A stretch of 64,000 bases of DNA from Lactobacillus sp. (GTDB lineage Bacteria > Bacillota > Bacilli > Lactobacillales > Lactobacillaceae): positions 1-64,000 of the forward strand of contig JALCQM010000007.1 of assembly GCA_022651245.1 (NCBI GenBank). The letters run 5' to 3'. Below are positions 14,587 through 21,975 of the stretch, one piece after another. The translations under genes and the position numbers were made by a program. Below the pieces are notes generated by a model. It ran no database searches. It saw only the letters and a program-made list of their open reading frames with translations, and was not told the DNA's origin. Position 1 is the first letter of the stretch, and each line of letters begins with the position of its first letter.

Positions 14587-14615
14587 TTGACGGGTCTCAT
14601 TTGACAGCGTATGGT
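14587..14615 (+). promoter_or_regulatory. promoter of leader-peptide unit 1
   Basis: TTGACG (14587-14592) and TATGGT (14610-14615) are spaced by exactly 17 bases. The same arrangement with better hexamers precedes units 2 and 3, which supports this weaker copy. Confidence 0.65.
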
Positions 14616-14652
14616 TAGCCACATACCCGAATCACAGACAGGAGTGTTGAGC

Positions 14653-14709
14653 ATGACCAAGCACCTAACAACACAACTGAATACTTATTACGGCGGCTAT
14701 TACGGATAG
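14653..14709 (+). CDS. 18-residue Tyr-rich leader peptide 1
   Basis: An 18-codon open frame, MTKHLTTQLNTYYGGYYG, with GGAG nine to twelve bases upstream of its ATG. It contains two tandem Tyr-Tyr pairs near the end and stops directly before an attenuator. Homologous leaders precede the two following binding-protein genes, with the TQLN core, the doubled aromatic pairs and the final Gly conserved. A hairpin GTGTTG (14644-14649)/CAACAC (14669-14674) with a 19-base loop encloses the start codon; the same pair and loop length occur in all three units. Its role should be to measure tyrosine supply through ribosome position. No function beyond that is implied. Confidence 0.82.
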   Translation: MTKHLTTQLNTYYGGYYG

Positions 14710-14710
14710 C

Positions 14711-14876
14711 GGGCTTGCACATGGATGTGAGCCTGCGCGCTTGCATCCATGTGGCCGTCGCATTTAACATGCCGATAACGCCACATGGGGAGAATTCTCT
14801 CATGTGGCTTTTTCTTTCCGGAAAGAAGATGGCCGGTCACGTGGGAGTTTCCCAGTGACCGGCCATTTTATTTTTT
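14711..14876 (+). promoter_or_regulatory. tandem-terminator attenuator 1
   Basis: Segment A (14718-14727) pairs with B (14744-14753) over 10 bp; B (14747-14755) also pairs with C (14780-14788); C (14780-14787) also pairs with D (14801-14808) to form an intrinsic terminator with TTTTT at 14809. These three pairings exclude each other as in classical attenuators. A CTTTCCGGAAAG palindrome and a second, independent terminator (GGCCGGTCAC stem, 14831-14864, then a T-rich tail) follow, and the second T-run abuts the GGAGG of the next gene. Confidence 0.83.
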
Positions 14877-14888
14877 GGAGGACTTATC

Positions 14889-15839
14889 ATGAAAAAAATT
14901 ATTTTTGGGCTTGCCGCCGCCATGTCTCTGCTTTTATTAGCCGCTTGTGGGAAAAGTAGCAGTCCCCAGTCGAAGAGTGACGTTAAGATCGGGATTTTGC
15001 AACAACTCGATCAACAAGCCTTAGACGATACGGAAAAAGGCATTCGCGAAGAATTGAAGGCCAAAGGCTACGGGAAAGCGAAGATCAAGTTGCTCAACGC
15101 TCAAGGGGACCAGTCAAACCTCAACCAAATGAGCCAACAATTGAGCCGGATGAACAACACGGTGAACATCTCGATCGGCTCTGCGGCCTCGCAAGCCATG
15201 GAGAAGGCAGGCAACAAGACACCGTTGATCTTCTCAGCAATCACCGACCCGGTGGCTGCGGGTCTGATCACCAAGTCAGCGTTGCAGGCCCCCGACAAGA
15301 ATGCCACCGGCGTCACCGTTTTGGCGAACGTTAAGATGCAGTTGGAATTGCTTCACAAGATGTTCCCCCAGGCCAAGAAGATCGGGATGATGTACGATGC
15401 CGGTGAACCTAACGCGATGGCGATCGTCAAGCGAGCCCGCAAGGCGATGAAGCAGCTAGGGATGACGCCGGTTGAAATGACGGTCGCCTCTGCTTCTGAT
15501 GTTGAATCTACGGCCCGGGCGCTGTGCAAGAAGTCCGATGCCTTGTTTATTCCCAATGACCACGTGGCCGCAGTGGGGATGGCGACGATCGGTAAAGTCT
15601 CCGAAGCCACGAAGGTCCCAGTTGTCAACACGGACCCAACAATGATCCAATTCGCCGGAGTGGCAACTAAAGGGGCTAGCTTTGAAGATATTGGCAAGCA
15701 AACTGCGGACATGGCGATCAAGATCATCAAAGGCAAGAAAGTCAAAGACATCCCAGTCGAAGGCCCTAAGCACATCAAGTTGGTCACGAACGCTAAGCGG
15801 ATGAAGCTTTTCGGCGTTACCAAAGACATGTTGAAGTAA
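14889..15839 (+). CDS. ABC transporter substrate-binding lipoprotein 1 (predicted tyrosine-linked)
   Basis: A 316-residue lipoprotein of the ABC_sub_bind (TrpX-like) family. The signal peptide ends in LLAAC (Cys about 20) and the mature protein starts with KIGILQQLDQ, the conserved entry to the first alpha/beta lobe. It is paralogous to the next two binding proteins but more diverged (for example it has QQLDQQALDD where the others have QLIDQ.AL). GGAGG lies eight bases before ATG 14889. The upstream leader peptide is Tyr-rich, so I infer tyrosine or a related aromatic compound as ligand; the family as such includes tryptophan and other ligands. It must share the permease and ATPase encoded further downstream. 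Confidence 0.88.
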   Translation: MKKIIFGLAAAMSLLLLAACGKSSSPQSKSDVKIGILQQLDQQALDDTEKGIREELKAKGYGKAKIKLLNAQGDQSNLNQMSQQLSRMNNTVNISIGSAASQAMEKAGNKTPLIFSAITDPVAAGLITKSALQAPDKNATGVTVLANVKMQLELLHKMFPQAKKIGMMYDAGEPNAMAIVKRARKAMKQLGMTPVEMTVASASDVESTARALCKKSDALFIPNDHVAAVGMATIGKVSEATKVPVVNTDPTMIQFAGVATKGASFEDIGKQTADMAIKIIKGKKVKDIPVEGPKHIKLVTNAKRMKLFGVTKDMLK

Positions 15840-15884
15840 ACCACCGGTGAACGACAGGCTTTTGGGTGAATGTCCCAAATCACC

Positions 15885-15913
15885 TTGACATGAAGTTTTG
15901 ATGAGCGTATTCT
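15885..15913 (+). promoter_or_regulatory. promoter of leader-peptide unit 2
   Basis: Consensus TTGACA (15885-15890), a 17-base spacer and TATTCT (15908-15913). A small CCAGC/GCTGG hairpin follows at 15923-15938 in the predicted 5' leader and is shared with unit 3. Confidence 0.82.
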
Positions 15914-15956
15914 CAGACACGTACCAGCTAAGCGCTGGGCCGAAGGAGTGTTGATA

Positions 15957-16016
15957 ATGACTAAATTAATGCCAACACAACTTAATCACGCTTATTACTA
16001 CGGCTATTACGGATAG
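15957..16016 (+). CDS. 19-residue Tyr-rich leader peptide 2
   Basis: MTKLMPTQLNHAYYYGYYG, with five Tyr codons in the last eight residues. GGAG lies upstream, within the GTGTTG/CAACAC start-codon hairpin (19-base loop) common to all three leaders. The stop codon sits directly before the A segment of attenuator 2. Confidence 0.84.
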   Translation: MTKLMPTQLNHAYYYGYYG

Positions 16017-16190
16017 CGGCTTGCATTCGCCAAAGGATGCAAACCGCGTTGCAGGTTTGCATCCATGATCGGCGTAGCACTTAACATGCGATTAACGCCA
16101 CATGGATGAAGTGATTCTCCATGTGGCTTTTTCTTTCCGGAAAAAGAAGCGGCCGGCCACTGGGGAATCTCAGTGGCCGGCTTTTTGTTT
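16017..16190 (+). promoter_or_regulatory. tandem-terminator attenuator 2
   Basis: A (16035-16045) pairs with B (16054-16064) over 11 bp. B (CATCCATG then GGCGT, 16060-16075) alternatively pairs with C (16095-16108). C (16097-16106) pairs with D (16118-16127) in a 10-bp stem followed by TTTTTC, the first terminator. A second terminator with an 11-bp GCCGGCCACTG stem (16152-16181) and TTTTT follows. Confidence 0.83.
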
Positions 16191-16222
16191 AGCCTGAGTA
16201 GAAAAAAATTTTTGGAGGAATC

Positions 16223-17191
16223 ATGATGAAAATGAAAAAAGTATTGGTGGGTTTGACCACGATCGTGGCGGTCGCCAGCCTGGCCGCCTGCGGCAATAAA
16301 AGCGCGAAGAAAAGCGACACCGTCAAAGTTGGGATCTTGCAGTTGATCGATCAAAGCGCCTTGAATGCGGCGCGCAAAGGCTTTACGGAAGAGCTGGCCA
16401 AAGAAGGGTACAAAGGCGATAAGATCAAGATCGATTACGTCAACGCACAAGGCGATCAAGCCAATTTGAAGTCGATGAGTCAACAACTCAAGCAAGACAA
16501 GAACGATTTGAATTTGGCCATCGCCACGCCAGCGGCCCAAGCGTTGCAAAAAGAAGATGCTGACACGCCAATGTTATTCACGGCGATCACGGATCCTAAA
16601 TCTGCAGGCTTAACCACCAATCCTAAGGCACCAGATAAAAATGCCACCGGAGTGACCGATATGGTCGACGTCAAAGGCCAAATCGACTTCACGCACAAAC
16701 TGTTCCCGAAGGCTAAGAAGATCGGCTTGCTGTACAACGCGGCTGAAGCCAACTCGGTTTTCCAAATCAAGCTAGCCAAACAAGAAATCAAAAAGTTAGG
16801 CTTGACGGCCGTGGTCAAGACGGCGGCAACCACCAATGACGTGCAGCAAGCGGCTGAAGCCTTAGCGGGACAAGCCGATGCGATCTACATCCCGACAGAC
16901 AATGTGGCGGCTGCCGGCATGGCAACGGTCGGTAAGGTCTCTGAAAAGTCGAAGGTGCCCGTGGTCAATGCGGATGCGACGATGATCAAACTGGCCGGCG
17001 TCGCGACGAAGGGGATCAACTACGAAGACCTCGGCAAACAAACGGCGAAAATGGCCGTCAAGATCCTCAAAGGCAAGAAGGTCAAGTCGTTACCGATCGA
17101 ATCGCCTGCTAAGACCGAATTGGTCTCCAACGCCAAGCGCATGAAATTGTTCAACTTAACGCAAGCTGACCTCGAAAACGCCGCTAAATAG
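16223..17191 (+). CDS. ABC transporter substrate-binding lipoprotein 2 (predicted tyrosine-linked)
   Basis: A 322-residue paralogue of the flanking binding proteins, with signal peptide and lipobox SLAAC (Cys about 23), then KVGILQLIDQSAL and the two-lobe ABC_sub_bind fold. It is very similar to copy 3 over long stretches (KGDKIKIDYVNAQGDQANLK, IATPAAQALQK). The start is ATG 16223 behind GGAGG; a second ATG one codon on is equivalent. It has its own promoter, Tyr leader peptide and attenuator. Most simply it delivers tyrosine to the shared permease; direct evidence for the ligand is lacking. Confidence 0.9.
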   Translation: MMKMKKVLVGLTTIVAVASLAACGNKSAKKSDTVKVGILQLIDQSALNAARKGFTEELAKEGYKGDKIKIDYVNAQGDQANLKSMSQQLKQDKNDLNLAIATPAAQALQKEDADTPMLFTAITDPKSAGLTTNPKAPDKNATGVTDMVDVKGQIDFTHKLFPKAKKIGLLYNAAEANSVFQIKLAKQEIKKLGLTAVVKTAATTNDVQQAAEALAGQADAIYIPTDNVAAAGMATVGKVSEKSKVPVVNADATMIKLAGVATKGINYEDLGKQTAKMAVKILKGKKVKSLPIESPAKTELVSNAKRMKLFNLTQADLENAAK

Positions 17192-17245
17192 CGCCTCAAA
17201 ACTGAATAGCCTCCCCCGTAAAAGCCGTAATGTTAGAATCTGGGG

Positions 17246-17274
17246 TTGACAGTCAGATCTTCCCATAGTATTCT
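17246..17274 (+). promoter_or_regulatory. promoter of leader-peptide unit 3
   Basis: TTGACA (17246-17251), 17-base spacer, TATTCT (17269-17274), the same hexamers and spacing as unit 2. Confidence 0.83.
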
Positions 17275-17314
17275 CATAAACATACCAGCAACGCTGGGCA
17301 AAGGAGTGTTGAAC

Positions 17315-17374
17315 ATGAACTTATTAAACCCAACACAACTGAACACAGTCTTTTTTACCGGCTTTTTCGGATAG
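17315..17374 (+). CDS. 19-residue Phe-rich leader peptide 3
   Basis: MNLLNPTQLNTVFFTGFFG. The two aromatic pairs that are Tyr-Tyr in leaders 1 and 2 are Phe-Phe here, while TQLN, the final Gly-stop and the start-codon hairpin are kept. That coordinated substitution is the best evidence that the codons are the sensed signal. Confidence 0.85.
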   Translation: MNLLNPTQLNTVFFTGFFG

Positions 17375-17550
17375 CGGTTTGCATCATGGATGCAAGCCGC
17401 GGCTTGCATCCATGATGGCCGGTACCATTAAACGTGCGATCAATTGCCACATGGATGAACAGAATTTCTCCATGTGGCCTTTTCTTTTCCGGAAAAAATG
17501 AATGGCCAGCCACGTGGGGATCTCTCTGAACGTGACTGGCCTTTTGATTT
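17375..17550 (+). promoter_or_regulatory. tandem-terminator attenuator 3
   Basis: A (17382-17399) and B (17400-17417) form a perfect 18-bp inverted repeat without spacer. B (CATCCATG-a-TGGC) can instead pair with C (17446-17457). C (17446-17455) pairs with D (17469-17478) followed by a T-rich tail. The second terminator pairs GGCCAG..CACGT (from 17504) with ACGTGACTGGCC (17530-17541), then TTTTG. Confidence 0.82.
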
Positions 17551-17596
17551 GGGCGTGTTGCTAACAAATCAGGCATTTTATCTGGGAGGATATTAC

Positions 17597-18547
17597 ATGA
17601 TGAAGAAGTTATTATTAGGCCTTGGGGCAATCGCAATGTTGGGCTTGGCGGCTTGTGGCAAGCAAGCGGCGGCCAAAGACGACACGGTCAAGGTCGGGAT
17701 CTTGCAATTAATCGACCAAACTGCTTTGACAGATGCGCGCCAGGGATTCACGCAAGAGCTGAAGGCACAAGGGTATAAAGGCGATAAAATCAAAATTGAC
17801 TATGTGAACGCCCAAGGCGATCAGGCGAACTTGAAAACCATGAGTGAGCAACTCAAAAAAGACAAGAACGACGTCAATTTAGCGATCGCGACCCCGGCGG
17901 CACAAGCCTTGCAAAAAGGCGATCCAGAGACGCCGATGGTGTTCACCGCCGTGACCGACCCTAAGGCGGCCGGCTTAGTCGATAACACCAAGGCGCCAGG
18001 GACTAACGCGACTGGGGTAGTGGACATGGTCAACATCGCTTCGCAGATCGCCTACATGCACAAGCTCTTCCCGAAGGCCAAAAACGTGGGGATGTTATAC
18101 AACGCAGCCGAACAAAACTCGATCGTCCAGATCAAGGCGGCTGAAAAGGCCGCTAAGAAGTTGGGCTTGAAGGTCGTCAAGCGCACCGTTGCCTCCACTA
18201 ACGATGTCCAATCGGCGACTGAATCATTAGCCGGACAAGCCGACGTGATCTACGTGCCGACTGACAATACGGTGGCGGCGGCGATGAGCACCGTTGGCAA
18301 AGTTTCCTTGGCTAAAAAGGTGCCGGTGGTCCCTGCGGCTTCGACCATGGTCAAAGATGGTGGGGTGGCCACGATCGGGATTGACTACAAGGATTTAGGC
18401 AAGCAAACGGCCAAGCTCGCGATCAAGATCTTGAAAGGTAAGAAGGTCAAAGACCTCGCCGTTGAAACCCCAGCGAAGGTGACGGTCATCAAGAACCAGA
18501 AGATGATGAAGGCGTTCGCCATCACCGATGCAGACACCAAGCAATAA
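17597..18547 (+). CDS. ABC transporter substrate-binding lipoprotein 3 (predicted phenylalanine-linked)
   Basis: A 316-residue ABC_sub_bind family lipoprotein, lipobox GLAAC (Cys about 20). The true start is ATG 17597 behind GGGAGG; the frame is open for another 41 codons upstream but those overlap the attenuator and lack family similarity. It closely resembles copy 2. Its own leader is Phe-rich, so I infer phenylalanine as the ligand or the co-regulating signal. The permease and ATPase follow at 82 and 2 bases, making this the copy most directly in operon with the transporter. Confidence 0.9.
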   Translation: MMKKLLLGLGAIAMLGLAACGKQAAAKDDTVKVGILQLIDQTALTDARQGFTQELKAQGYKGDKIKIDYVNAQGDQANLKTMSEQLKKDKNDVNLAIATPAAQALQKGDPETPMVFTAVTDPKAAGLVDNTKAPGTNATGVVDMVNIASQIAYMHKLFPKAKNVGMLYNAAEQNSIVQIKAAEKAAKKLGLKVVKRTVASTNDVQSATESLAGQADVIYVPTDNTVAAAMSTVGKVSLAKKVPVVPAASTMVKDGGVATIGIDYKDLGKQTAKLAIKILKGKKVKDLAVETPAKVTVIKNQKMMKAFAITDADTKQ

Positions 18548-18628: not shown

Positions 18629-19528
18629 ATGAGCATCTTAACCTCTAGTGTCTCGCAAGGTTTGTTGTGGTCGATCATGGCGATCGGCGTCTACTTGACC
18701 TTCCGAATTTTGGATATCGCCGATATGACAGCCGAAGGGAGTTTTCCTCTAGGTGCGGCGATCACCGCGCACAGCCTTGTGCACGGCGGCAATCCGATCC
18801 TGGCGACCCTATACGGGTTCTTGGGCGGGGCGTTAGCCGGTTTTGTTTCTGGTTTCTTGCATACCAAGTTGAAGATTCCTGATCTGTTGACCGGGATCTT
18901 GACGATGACCGGGTTGTATTCCGTCAACCTGTTCATCATGGGCCAGGCCAATTTATCCTTGTTGAGCAATATTAAAACGGTATTTACCCTATTTTCGACC
19001 GGCGATTCGACGTTAGACACGATCGCAGTCGGGGCAGTCGTTTTGGCGATCGTGATCATTTTGTTGGTGCTGTACTTTAATACCCAAATGGGCTTGGCGG
19101 CACGCGCGGTCGGGGATAATCAGGCGATGTCTGCAGCCAACGGGATCAATAACGACAACATGAAGATCATCGTCTACATGGTCAGTAACGGTCTGATCGC
19201 GTTATCTGGGAGCTTAATGGCCCAAACCAACGGCTACGCGGATATCTCCATGGGGATCGGGACGTTGGTGATCGCGCTAGCCGCTATCATCATTGCGGAA
19301 ATCTTGTTACGTAACTTGAGTTTTGGCCAGCGCTTATTAACGATCATCGTCGGGGCGATCATCTACCGCTTGATCATTGCCGGCGTCTTGGAACTCGGGG
19401 TCGATCCTAACGCCTTGCGCCTGTTCTACGCCTTGATGTTAGTCGTCTTCTTGTCCTTACCATTGATCCAAAAAGAATTCAAAGTGATCAAGGCACGGCG
19501 CGAAAATAAACAGCGGATGGGGGATTAA
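18629..19528 (+). CDS. ABC transporter permease for the aromatic uptake system
   Basis: A 299-residue membrane protein with about eight to nine hydrophobic segments, of the branched-chain/TrpY-like permease group that partners ABC_sub_bind proteins. The N-terminal GLLWSIMAIGVYLTFRILDI and DMTAEGSF segments and the cytoplasmic GLAARAVGDNQAMSAANGI coupling loop (about 150-170) are characteristic. ATG 18629 follows AAGGAG. The single permease gene must serve all three binding proteins in the locus, presumably as a homodimer. The stop is two bases before the ATPase start. Confidence 0.9.
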   Translation: MSILTSSVSQGLLWSIMAIGVYLTFRILDIADMTAEGSFPLGAAITAHSLVHGGNPILATLYGFLGGALAGFVSGFLHTKLKIPDLLTGILTMTGLYSVNLFIMGQANLSLLSNIKTVFTLFSTGDSTLDTIAVGAVVLAIVIILLVLYFNTQMGLAARAVGDNQAMSAANGINNDNMKIIVYMVSNGLIALSGSLMAQTNGYADISMGIGTLVIALAAIIIAEILLRNLSFGQRLLTIIVGAIIYRLIIAGVLELGVDPNALRLFYALMLVVFLSLPLIQKEFKVIKARRENKQRMGD

Positions 19529-19530
19529 TC

Positions 19531-20334
19531 ATGCCAGCTTTAGAAGTTAAAGATCTACATCAATATTTTGCCCAAGGCACGGTCAACGAAAACCATGCGC
19601 TCAAAGGCATCGACTTGACCCTTGAAGAAGGCGATTTTGTCGCGATTATCGGTGGTAACGGTGCGGGGAAATCAACCTTGCTAAACTCAGTAGCCGGTTC
19701 CTTACCCGTCACGCATGGGCAAGTGAAGATCGCAGGCAAAGATGTGACCTATCAAAGCGTCGCCAAGCGCGCTAAGCTGATTTCCCGCGTTTTCCAGGAT
19801 CCGTTGTCAGGGACTGCGCCGATGCTGACGGTGGAAGAAAACCTCAGCCTGGCGATGCAGCGCGGCACGTGGCGGAATTTCTGGAGTGCCGGGGTGCGCA
19901 AGTCCGATCGCCAGTTATTCCAAGAAAAGCTGGCCAGCCTCAACTTGGGTCTGGAAAGTCGTTTGACCACCGAAATCGGGTTGCTGTCTGGGGGCCAACG
20001 CCAAGCCATCACCTTGTTGATGGCGACCTTGAAAGCGCCGGAACTCTTGTTATTAGATGAACACACGGCGGCGTTAGACCCGCAAACTAGCGCGACTGTC
20101 ATGCAACTGACGGAACAACTGGTTGCGGCGCAGAAGATCACGACCTTGATGATCACGCATGATATGCAAGATGCCTTGCGTTATGGCAACCGGCTCATCA
20201 TGCTCGATCACGGGCAGATCGCGGTCGACATTCGTCAAGACCAAAAACAAGGGCTGACCGTCCCTGATCTCTTACGTTTGTTCAAAGAACAAAGCGGCAA
20301 GGAACTCAACGATGATGCGGTATTGCTCAGCTAA
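19531..20334 (+). CDS. ABC transporter ATPase for the aromatic uptake system
   Basis: A 267-residue cytoplasmic ATPase. Walker A GGNGAGKST (about 42-50), signature LSGGQRQ (about 152) and Walker B LLLLDEH (about 172-178) with the H-loop in MITHDMQ are complete. Walker B ends in DEH rather than DEP, as in the TrpZ-like relatives. It starts two bases after the permease stop, so translation is likely coupled. A terminator follows, closing the transcription unit. Confidence 0.92.
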   Translation: MPALEVKDLHQYFAQGTVNENHALKGIDLTLEEGDFVAIIGGNGAGKSTLLNSVAGSLPVTHGQVKIAGKDVTYQSVAKRAKLISRVFQDPLSGTAPMLTVEENLSLAMQRGTWRNFWSAGVRKSDRQLFQEKLASLNLGLESRLTTEIGLLSGGQRQAITLLMATLKAPELLLLDEHTAALDPQTSATVMQLTEQLVAAQKITTLMITHDMQDALRYGNRLIMLDHGQIAVDIRQDQKQGLTVPDLLRLFKEQSGKELNDDAVLLS

Positions 20335-21477: not shown

Positions 21478-21975
21478 ATGCAAACAACGACAACACGCAG
21501 TTCCTGGTTACACCTAACGCAAATCGCGATCATTGCCGGTATTTACGTGGTTTTGACGGTGGTTTTCGCGCCGCTATCTTACGGGGTGGTACAAGTTAGG
21601 TTTTCGGAGATGTTGAATTACCTCGCTTTGTTTAAAAAGCGCTATCTCTGGGCCGTGACACTGGGTGTTTTGATTGCGAATTGCTTTAGCCCGACTTGGT
21701 TGATCGATGTGCCAGTGGGGACGATCGGCACGCTGATTTTCTTGTGGTTGAGTCGGTGGTTAGCCAAGAAGACCCAGCGGCGGTGGCTGAAGTTCCTGAT
21801 CATGGGCACCTTGTTCACGGTGTCGATGTTTACGGTCGCTGGTCAGTTGGCGATCGTGAATCACCTGCCATTTTGGGCGAGTTATGCGTCGATCGCTTTA
21901 GGCGAGGCGCTTTCGATGGCGATCGGGGCCGTGTTGATGCGCGCCGTGGTCGCGATCTTACCGTTAGATAAGTGA
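21478..21975 (+). CDS. queT: QueT-family queuosine precursor transporter
   Basis: A 165-residue membrane protein of the QueT (COG4708) family, the S component of an ECF-type importer for queuosine precursors such as preQ1. About five to six hydrophobic segments; the family segment FAPLSYGVVQVRFSEML (about 31-47) and NCFSPTWLIDVPVGTIGTL (about 67-85) are clear. The preQ1-II switch at its ribosome binding site confirms the substrate class. No queuosine synthesis genes are adjacent, so salvage is likely. The gene is closed by a strong terminator. Confidence 0.93.
   Translation: MQTTTTRSSWLHLTQIAIIAGIYVVLTVVFAPLSYGVVQVRFSEMLNYLALFKKRYLWAVTLGVLIANCFSPTWLIDVPVGTIGTLIFLWLSRWLAKKTQRRWLKFLIMGTLFTVSMFTVAGQLAIVNHLPFWASYASIALGEALSMAIGAVLMRAVVAILPLDK

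Follow-up and report, generated by a model that had tools for sequence, protein, structure and literature searches.

The trp, pheA and his attenuators of Escherichia coli combine a leader peptide with repeated control codons and a set of alternative RNA stems. In Lactobacillales, T-boxes are the usual expectation for the sensing of aromatic amino acids. Here, we analyze a 64,000-nucleotide (nt) stretch of Lactobacillus sp. DNA (the window; contig JALCQM010000007.1 of assembly GCA_022651245.1, positions 1 to 64,000), in which three successive units each place a short leader open reading frame (ORF) and a series of hairpins ahead of a gene for an ATP-binding cassette (ABC) binding protein. Judging from sequence comparison, each unit very probably is a ribosome-mediated transcription attenuator, with Tyr as the control codon in units 1 and 2 and Phe in unit 3.

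Several described systems come close. Leader-peptide attenuation outside Proteobacteria is documented for His leader peptides in Firmicutes (PMC2965389, PMC9413887), which concern histidine and lineages other than those of the present leaders; for histidine, T-boxes are described as the commonest control in Lactobacillales (PMC9413887). The element uORFC-13-1, reported with 24 representatives from Acholeplasma and environmental sequences (PMC8632094), pairs a Phe-codon upstream ORF with a terminator before aroF, the gene for DAHP synthase, and its relation to the present leaders is one of description only. In Streptococcus suis trpXYZ, supply of the amino acid controls a related importer, TrpX, but through a T-box, that is a tRNA-binding RNA without a leader peptide (PMC9382623). 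Closest in structure is the Rfam family RF04312 (trpB motif), published by Narunsky et al. 2024 as SRC-39-1, a strong riboswitch candidate with more than 900 representatives, Fusobacteria among its named hosts, and most often located before an uncharacterised ABC transporter; its authors state that they cannot rule out a classic attenuator (PMC11109978). Like the window units, RF04312 has a P1 hairpin with an antiterminator shoulder followed by a terminator, and it sits in the 5′ untranslated region of an amino acid ABC transporter gene or of trpB. Unlike RF04312, the Phe/Tyr form described here carries a second hairpin in a relay. In a search of mainly open literature, including the accessible part of the T-box survey PMC2494555, we found no published description of these leader peptides.

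The window belongs to a Lacticaseibacillus-like genome; the nearest named relative that we found for its second binding protein is that of L. manihotivorans (86% identity). Between positions 14587 and 20334, three units, each composed of a promoter-like site, a leader ORF, a hairpin set and an ABC_sub_bind binding protein, precede one permease and one ATPase:

14587–14615, forward: promoter-like hexamers TTGACG-17-TATGGT of unit 1 (consensus match only)
14653–14709, forward: leader ORF 1, MTKHLTTQLNTYYGGYYG and stop, ending YYGGYYG, Tyr control codons (ORF and conservation scan)
no separate coordinates, forward: segment A1 of unit 1, within the last ORF codons, pairs with C (pairing comparison across relatives)
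14710–14724, forward: segment A2 of unit 1, pairs with B (pairing comparison across relatives)
14718–14753, forward: central hairpin B:C of unit 1, where a sub-threshold RF04312 match (14718–14819) starts (folding and Rfam model)
14780–14808, forward: terminator hairpin D1:E1 of unit 1, with U-run
14831–14864, forward: second terminator-like hairpin D2:E2 of unit 1
14889–15839, forward: binding protein copy 1 (PF04392), pocket pair Asp/Phe, altered ligand contacts
15885–15913, forward: promoter-like hexamers TTGACA-17-TATTCT of unit 2 (consensus match)
15957–16016, forward: leader ORF 2, MTKLMPTQLNHAYYYGYYG and stop, ending YYYGYYG, Tyr control codons
16035–16064, forward: central hairpin B:C of unit 2
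16097–16127, forward: terminator hairpin D1:E1 of unit 2, with U-run
16151–16182, forward: second terminator hairpin D2:E2 of unit 2, with U-run
16223–17191, forward: binding protein copy 2 (PF04392), pocket pair Asp251/Tyr267
17246–17274, forward: promoter-like hexamers TTGACA-17-TATTCT of unit 3 (consensus match)
17315–17374, forward: leader ORF 3, MNLLNPTQLNTVFFTGFFG and stop, ending FFTGFFG, Phe control codons
17382–17417, forward: central hairpin B:C of unit 3; sub-threshold RF04312 match at 17383–17489
17446–17478, forward: terminator hairpin D1:E1 of unit 3
17504–17541, forward: second terminator-like hairpin D2:E2 of unit 3, with U-run
17597–18547, forward: binding protein copy 3 (PF04392), pocket pair Ala/Tyr
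18629–19528, forward: common permease (PF02653)
19531–20334, forward: common ATPase (PF00005)

A preliminary description, made from the window sequence, had already proposed a 17-spaced promoter for each binding-protein gene, leaders of 18–19 codons with the patterns YY..YY, YYY.YY and FF..FF, and a permease and ATPase common to the three binding proteins. All of this is borne out. Each leader is preceded by a Shine-Dalgarno-like site, all three share TQLN and a final Gly, and a single PF02653 and a single PF00005 gene follow the three PF04392 genes. The promoter-like hexamers, with 17-nt spacers throughout, end 37–43 nt before each leader, and their matches are weak by themselves (three found, 2.7 expected). 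For the RNA, the same description had drawn mutually exclusive stems A:B, B:C and C:D. Exclusive stems that covary and end in terminators are indeed present, but their wiring differs and runs through tandem hairpins: every unit has a second terminator-like hairpin that had been missed, which rules out a single terminator per unit.

We observed coordinated complementarity across relatives for seven pairings, A1:C, A2:B, B:C, C:D1, D1:E1, E1:D2 and D2:E2, which suggest how translation of the leader would be linked to transcription of the binding-protein gene. When the charged tRNA is scarce, the ribosome would stall on the first aromatic codons and cover A1, leaving A2 free. A2 would then pair with B; C, thus released, would pair with D1, and E1, freed in turn, would pair with D2. 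Both terminators would fail, and the binding protein would be made when its amino acid is scarce. With the amino acid plentiful, the ribosome would reach the stop codon and cover A2, so that B:C, D1:E1 and D2:E2 form and transcription stops. Without translation, A1:C could also hold C and keep the switch off. The three binding proteins would use the one permease and ATPase, each importing the amino acid of its own leader. The repeated control codons and the alternative stems are those of the E. coli attenuators, and the serial stems recall his. By contrast with E. coli, C is the partner of the ORF tail (A1), A2 begins at the stop codon, and a stalled ribosome allows the first stem instead of blocking it; we claim no sequence kinship.

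The leaders are conserved. We searched 201 genomes of the family, of which 185 contain a homologue of binding protein 2, and fetched 40 regions around such matches. When we scanned for short ORFs that combine aromatic residues with a Shine-Dalgarno-like site, 55 leaders were listed in 37 of the 40 regions, their starts lying 236–656 nt ahead of the binding protein. A further scan detected leaders in the remaining three, so that all 40 regions carry at least one. Their ends fall into a few types: YYYGYYG and FF.GFFG in Lacticaseibacillus, FAFSFFFR in Companilactobacillus, and ..FS[YF]FR in Lactobacillus, Enterococcus and some Streptococcus, and the leaders have at least four aromatic codons among their last eight. 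At loci L047, L048 and L049, two or three consecutive binding-protein genes lie behind a single leader of the RFYYGYFR type. The preliminary description had named beforehand, as the finding that would speak against it, a lack of conservation of the leader frames and their Tyr/Phe codons at homologous loci; both are conserved.

Upon comparison of the leader RNAs, the proposed stems stand out from their controls, and the covariation anticipated in the preliminary description is thereby upheld. We cut each leader into A1 (ORF end), A2 (after the stop), B, C, D and E, with D2:E2 added for Phe/Tyr leaders, and compared the duplex energy within one leader with the energies obtained when one partner came from another genome. 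A first parse succeeded for 150 of 169 leaders, 116 after thinning (79 Trp, 37 Phe/Tyr); many of the other 19 failed since the U-run is only on their second hairpin. In the Trp leaders, the own pairing exceeded the cross-genome median in 62 (A1:C), 70 (A2:B), 76 (B:C), 51 (C:D) and 78 (D:E) of 79 cases, as against 26–43 for seven non-proposed pairs. The corresponding values for the 37 Phe/Tyr leaders were 31, 30, 37, 28 and 37, with seven other pairs at 14–21. A stricter two-hairpin parse handled 60 of 61 Phe/Tyr leaders, 49 after thinning, and gave 47 for A1:C, 47 for A2:B, 48 for B:C, 40 for C:D1, 48 for D1:E1, 45 for E1:D2 and 49 for D2:E2. Nine of eleven non-proposed pairs lay at 21–29; the other two, D1:E2 (34) and A1:E1 (35), may be indirect. 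The first hairpin lacks a U-run in leaders of the Companilactobacillus type (FAFSFFFR) and in several of the Lactobacillus type, where the signal must therefore pass via E1:D2 to the second hairpin.

The geometry of the leaders fits this wiring. A ribosome covers 13 nt beyond the first base of its A-site codon. With this footprint, a ribosome on the first aromatic codon leaves A2 free in 76 of 79 Trp and 37 of 37 Phe/Tyr leaders, and one at the stop codon covers at least half of A2 in every leader (79/79 and 37/37), a result that is favored by our having searched A2 from the stop onward. We also folded each RNA, as far as the 5′ arm of its first terminator, with a partition-function model. The mean C:D pairing in the 79 Trp leaders was 0.42 without a ribosome, 0.71 with one on the first Trp codon and 0.34 with one at the stop; the codon value was above the stop value in 67 leaders and below it in five. 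For the 49 Phe/Tyr leaders the means were 0.39, 0.68 and 0.40 (38 above, five below). Within the ORF, modeled C:D pairing peaks for A-site positions −7 to −4, counted in codons from the stop (−6 to −4 in the Trp set), which are those of the aromatic codons; it climbs again beyond the stop, where no ribosome would read that frame. All three window units pair C:D more at the codon than at the stop, unit 3 most weakly, and only in unit 1 (0.54 without ribosome, 0.81 at the codon, 0.55 at the stop) does the codon value exceed that without a ribosome.

The binding pockets provide a line of evidence that is separate from the RNA. Binding protein 2 has solved relatives in 6hni, 3lft and 3lkv, whose ligands are Tyr, Trp and Phe, respectively; the residues reported to select among them are Glu-263/Ala/Ala and Tyr-279/Gln/Tyr in the Tyr, Trp and Phe binder, and Glu-263 of CD0873 hydrogen-bonds the tyrosine hydroxyl (PMC6816091). 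In binding protein 2, Asp251 and Tyr267 are the equivalents of Glu-263 and Tyr-279. The residue 251 position reads Asp, Asp and Ala in copies 1, 2 and 3, behind Tyr, Tyr and Phe leaders, which independently supports the assignment of the three units to tyrosine, tyrosine and phenylalanine in the preliminary description. The full CD0873-type pair (acidic plus Tyr) is present in copy 2 only, copy 1 having Asp/Phe, and the Ala/Tyr of copy 3 is the Phe-type pair of VC_1101. Scored against the NCBIfam TrpX model (NF041285), copies 1–3 reach 260, 308 and 330 bits, all below its cut-off of 390.

The same agreement extends over the relatives. We compiled a pocket table of 251 rows, named loci included, 237 of them distinct after removal of 14 repeats, with L061_4712 and L064_4467 labeled by hand from the first leader scan. 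Among the distinct proteins, residue 267 is Gln in 100 of 100 rows with a Trp leader and Tyr or Phe in 96 of 96 rows with a Phe/Tyr leader. Residue 251 is Asp in 17, Thr in six and Ser in three of the 26 proteins behind pure-Tyr leaders; Ser in 18, Ala in 11 and Val in two of the 31 behind pure-Phe leaders; and Ser in 28, Asp in six, Ala in four and Glu in one of the 39 behind mixed leaders. Thus Asp or Thr occurs in 23/26 pure-Tyr versus 0/31 pure-Phe rows, and Ala or Val in 13/31 pure-Phe versus 0/26 pure-Tyr rows. A tree of 173 binding proteins separates 66 rows, none with a Trp leader, from 107 rows, none with a Phe/Tyr leader (99% in the Shimodaira–Hasegawa-like approximate likelihood ratio test), and the leader labels require 15 changes on it, compared to 68.5 in shuffles. 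Eleven tree rows have no leader in the table; two of six such rows in one Trp-side clade, when read directly, have a Trp leader. These pocket residues support the prediction that each binding protein imports whichever amino acid its own leader reads. Two groups of binding proteins stand apart: L252–L274, mostly from the Streptococcus mitis group, have a Ser/Tyr pair and no leader within the upstream DNA scanned, which extended to 700 nt at most (it is shorter at four of these loci; L255, the one checked, has no Rfam match), and 12 clostridial and other rows with the Glu/Tyr pair of CD0873 had no leader found (L217, L229, L230, L237, L240, L241, L244, L248, L249, L253, L272 and L273).

We next consider the Rfam families. 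The window contains no Rfam match at gathering score, including none to RF02863. T-box control is rejected, as neither the window nor the 30 related loci searched contain a T-box match at gathering score. A sensitive search places RF04312 in units 1–3 at 41.4, 33 and 41.5 bits, below the cut-off of 59, and we therefore treat the window units as relatives and do not file them as members. RF04312 itself matched 160 of 295 Lactobacillales genomes, 52 of them above the cut-off, compared to 15 of 299 in a sample of the class and 5 of 299 in a sample of the phylum, both of which share some genomes with the Lactobacillales sample, including the window's own. We examined 122 RF04312 loci among the matches listed (30 + 10 + 3 + 79), spread over genera and with Fusobacteria left out, for an ORF of 9–30 codons that has a Shine-Dalgarno-like site, ends at most 35 nt before the match, and includes Trp, or three or more of Phe/Tyr/Trp, among its nine final codons. 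Such a leader lies just 5′ of the match at 112 of the 122 loci, with typical ends ..QLNxSWQNWRR, ..NTRWQSR and ..QLNNYYFSYFR. Dinucleotide shuffles predict 1.65 and the reverse complement yields none, which rules out chance ORFs as their source. Ten loci had no scored leader: L105, L133 and L164 have Trp-codon ORFs that the criteria missed, and six (L113, L116, L117, L118, L160 and L183) look like unrelated terminators. At L107 (G482), a His-rich leader, FQFHHHHRFKGL, lies about 90 nt before an RF04312 match of 54.5 bits ahead of hisZ, possibly representing, in another family of Bacilli, a version for a fourth amino acid. Because a leader ORF is present at 112 of 122 loci, we conclude that the RF04312 RNA, at least in Lactobacillales, is the predicted 3′ part of a leader-peptide attenuator. 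We found no mention of a leader ORF for this motif in the part of PMC11109978 covered here.

A second family points the same way. RF02863 (Enterococcus sRNA_2410), filed as a small RNA gene rather than an attenuator, scores 71.7–135.8 bits (cut-off 61) over the Phe/Tyr leaders at five Enterococcus loci and also matches two leaders in L061, a Lactobacillaceae locus. We read it as the same attenuator; the accessible parts of two papers on enterococcal small RNAs, PMC7724050 and PMC3166299, do not mention it. The preliminary claim that no such family had been described is thus partly revised: the RNA half resembles RF04312 and, in enterococci, is RF02863; neither was tied to a leader peptide in the literature accessible to us. 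Beside one related locus, at L057 3905–3964, there is a Na+ riboswitch (RF03071).

The genes behind the leaders belong to the pathway of the control amino acid, as judged by the pocket residues in the window and by trpB, aroE, DAHP synthase and prephenate dehydratase in relatives. Behind Trp leaders lie genes for TrpX-type binding proteins and trpB (L082, L089, L093, L128 and L150 by sequence; confirmed at L089 by TIGR00263 and at L128 by a PALP domain). The pattern [FY][FY]S[FY]FR before a stop occurs in 112 of 295 Lactobacillales genomes, and the reversed pattern yields 10 matches in nine genomes. In the 30 such loci listed, the YFSYFR-type leaders precede binding proteins, shikimate dehydrogenase (aroE; L296, L297, L301, L302, L303 and L305), DAHP synthase (L288) and prephenate dehydratase (L289 and L290); Pfam or NCBIfam confirmed L288, L289, L292, L296, L301, L302 and L182, and the others rest on sequence likeness. 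Four of the 30 had no scored leader start, of which L288 (MLHAQIQLHSNRYYFSYFR) and L295 (MKNEQVYPTQLNNFFFSYFR) have one by reading; L298 and L300 are probable chance matches, and no gene lies in reach of the pattern at L299 and L300. About 185 nt after a YFSYFR leader, L292 (by Pfam) and L293 (by likeness) carry a CitMHS-type transporter, which may transport an aromatic compound. Taken together, the comparison is best read as a family extending over Lactobacillales, with a Trp version (RF04312) and a Phe/Tyr version also predicted to act before aromatic biosynthesis genes.

How else could these leaders work? The published covarying hairpins and antiterminator shoulder that made RF04312 a strong riboswitch candidate (PMC11109978) would suit an aptamer with an aromatic amino acid or a relative as its direct ligand, and the leader ORF would then be secondary. 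We consider this very improbable: the ORF lies outside the RF04312 model and is nevertheless present at 112 of 122 loci, the covarying segments extend into it (A1:C), and its amino acid changes with the gene and the pocket residue. That last observation, together with a modeled ON window that coincides with the aromatic codons, makes it scarcely credible that the leaders respond to another tRNA, such as that for Asn or Gln, or to translation slowing down in general, with incidental aromatic codons, an idea for which the QLN conserved in many leaders could be cited. A further alternative is sensing by the nascent chain, for which TnaC is the precedent: a peptide in the ribosome tunnel would bind free Tyr, Phe or Trp and arrest at or near the stop, and the genes would be off, the same regulatory sign that we predict. 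Leu-Asn occurs in 54 of the 55 leaders of the first scan, which did not ask for it, and precedes the aromatic codons in 48 of 49 Phe/Tyr leaders, a count that is partly circular because rows from binding-protein loci were picked by a pattern needing LN, LQ or QL. Its Leu is written with all six codons, so the peptide, and not only the RNA, seems selected and may itself have a role in part of the family. Even so, the presence of at least four aromatic codons among the last eight is as expected for codon sensing, only 20 of 79 Trp leaders have QLN or HLN (59 lack both), and many YFSYFR-pattern leaders likewise lack them, which leaves arrest by a ligand-binding peptide improbable. Somewhat less improbable, and still doubtful, is that the Phe/Tyr leaders are hybrid sensors, in which codon counting would combine with a nascent Gln-Leu-Asn acting in the tunnel (where it might lengthen the stall or recognise the free amino acid, for example) and the signal would be relayed through three successive strand exchanges to the distal terminator.

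Ribosome-mediated attenuation, our preferred reading, has to be weighed against several of our own observations. In the Trp set, C:D shows the weakest covariation (51/79). A coarser test made earlier was weak: of 21 Lacticaseibacillus-like leaders, the own pairing was better in just 13 for C:D1, 15 for E1:D2 and 11 for C:D2. Five of the 79 Trp leaders and five of the 49 Phe/Tyr leaders go in the wrong direction in the folding model, and the model does not separate the stalled state from that without a ribosome in unit 2 (0.83 without ribosome, 0.84 at the codon, 0.36 at the stop) or unit 3 (0.43, 0.43 and 0.25). The window copies reach only 33–41.5 bits with RF04312, and the match in unit 2 falls on its two terminators and not on B:C. 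In the pocket table, Ser251 occurs with Tyr, Phe and mixed leaders alike, which leaves half of the rows uninformative on the Tyr/Phe rule; its rows are related, and the counts are thus not independent trials; and our scans found no leader for 41 distinct binding proteins of the family.

The three units do not share a simple history. The preliminary description had called them triplicated, which holds insofar as three paralogous units are present and fails for copy 1. This protein is 77% identical to a gene of L. songhuajiangensis and 80% to one of L. hulanensis and only 54% to copy 2, and L. manihotivorans, the closest named species that we found, has at this place a phosphatase, a Tyr leader, copy 2, a Phe leader and copy 3, with no copy 1. 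These two observations reject a simple tandem triplication for copy 1, and we infer from them a separately derived, putatively Tyr-regulated unit. Its pocket is distinct as well: Asp146 is replaced by Val and Asn227 by His, both contacts being otherwise nearly invariant, and only two other proteins of the set, those of L. songhuajiangensis and L. hulanensis, have this change, also behind Tyr leaders. Because two nearly invariant contacts are lost, the ligand of copy 1 itself is uncertain; it may be a relative of tyrosine. The copy-1-type proteins (window 14889–15839, L213 and L214) share Val146, His227, Phe267 and Asp251, such that the hydroxyl-binding position stays acidic. Elsewhere in the same genome (L004, contig C4 near 84355), a further set of binding protein, permease and ATPase has the Trp-type Gln pocket; it begins close behind another reading frame, and no leader was seen there. 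A QueT-type transporter (PF06177) lies downstream of the importer genes in the window, at 21478–21975.

We regard as real a conserved family of predicted leader-peptide attenuators for three amino acids. As far as we found, the kind of mechanism is known, and the family, its wiring and its reach are new. It offers a possible answer for RF04312, a published riboswitch candidate without a ligand, and a likely function for RF02863. Since leader codons and pocket residues agree, the leader sequence could be used to predict the ligand of unassigned importers. If the doubtful hybrid-sensor reading of the Phe/Tyr leaders were true, codons, peptide, RNA and receptor pocket would co-evolve as one unit. 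For Lactobacillales at large, leader-peptide attenuation would be a broad means of sensing Trp, Tyr and Phe.

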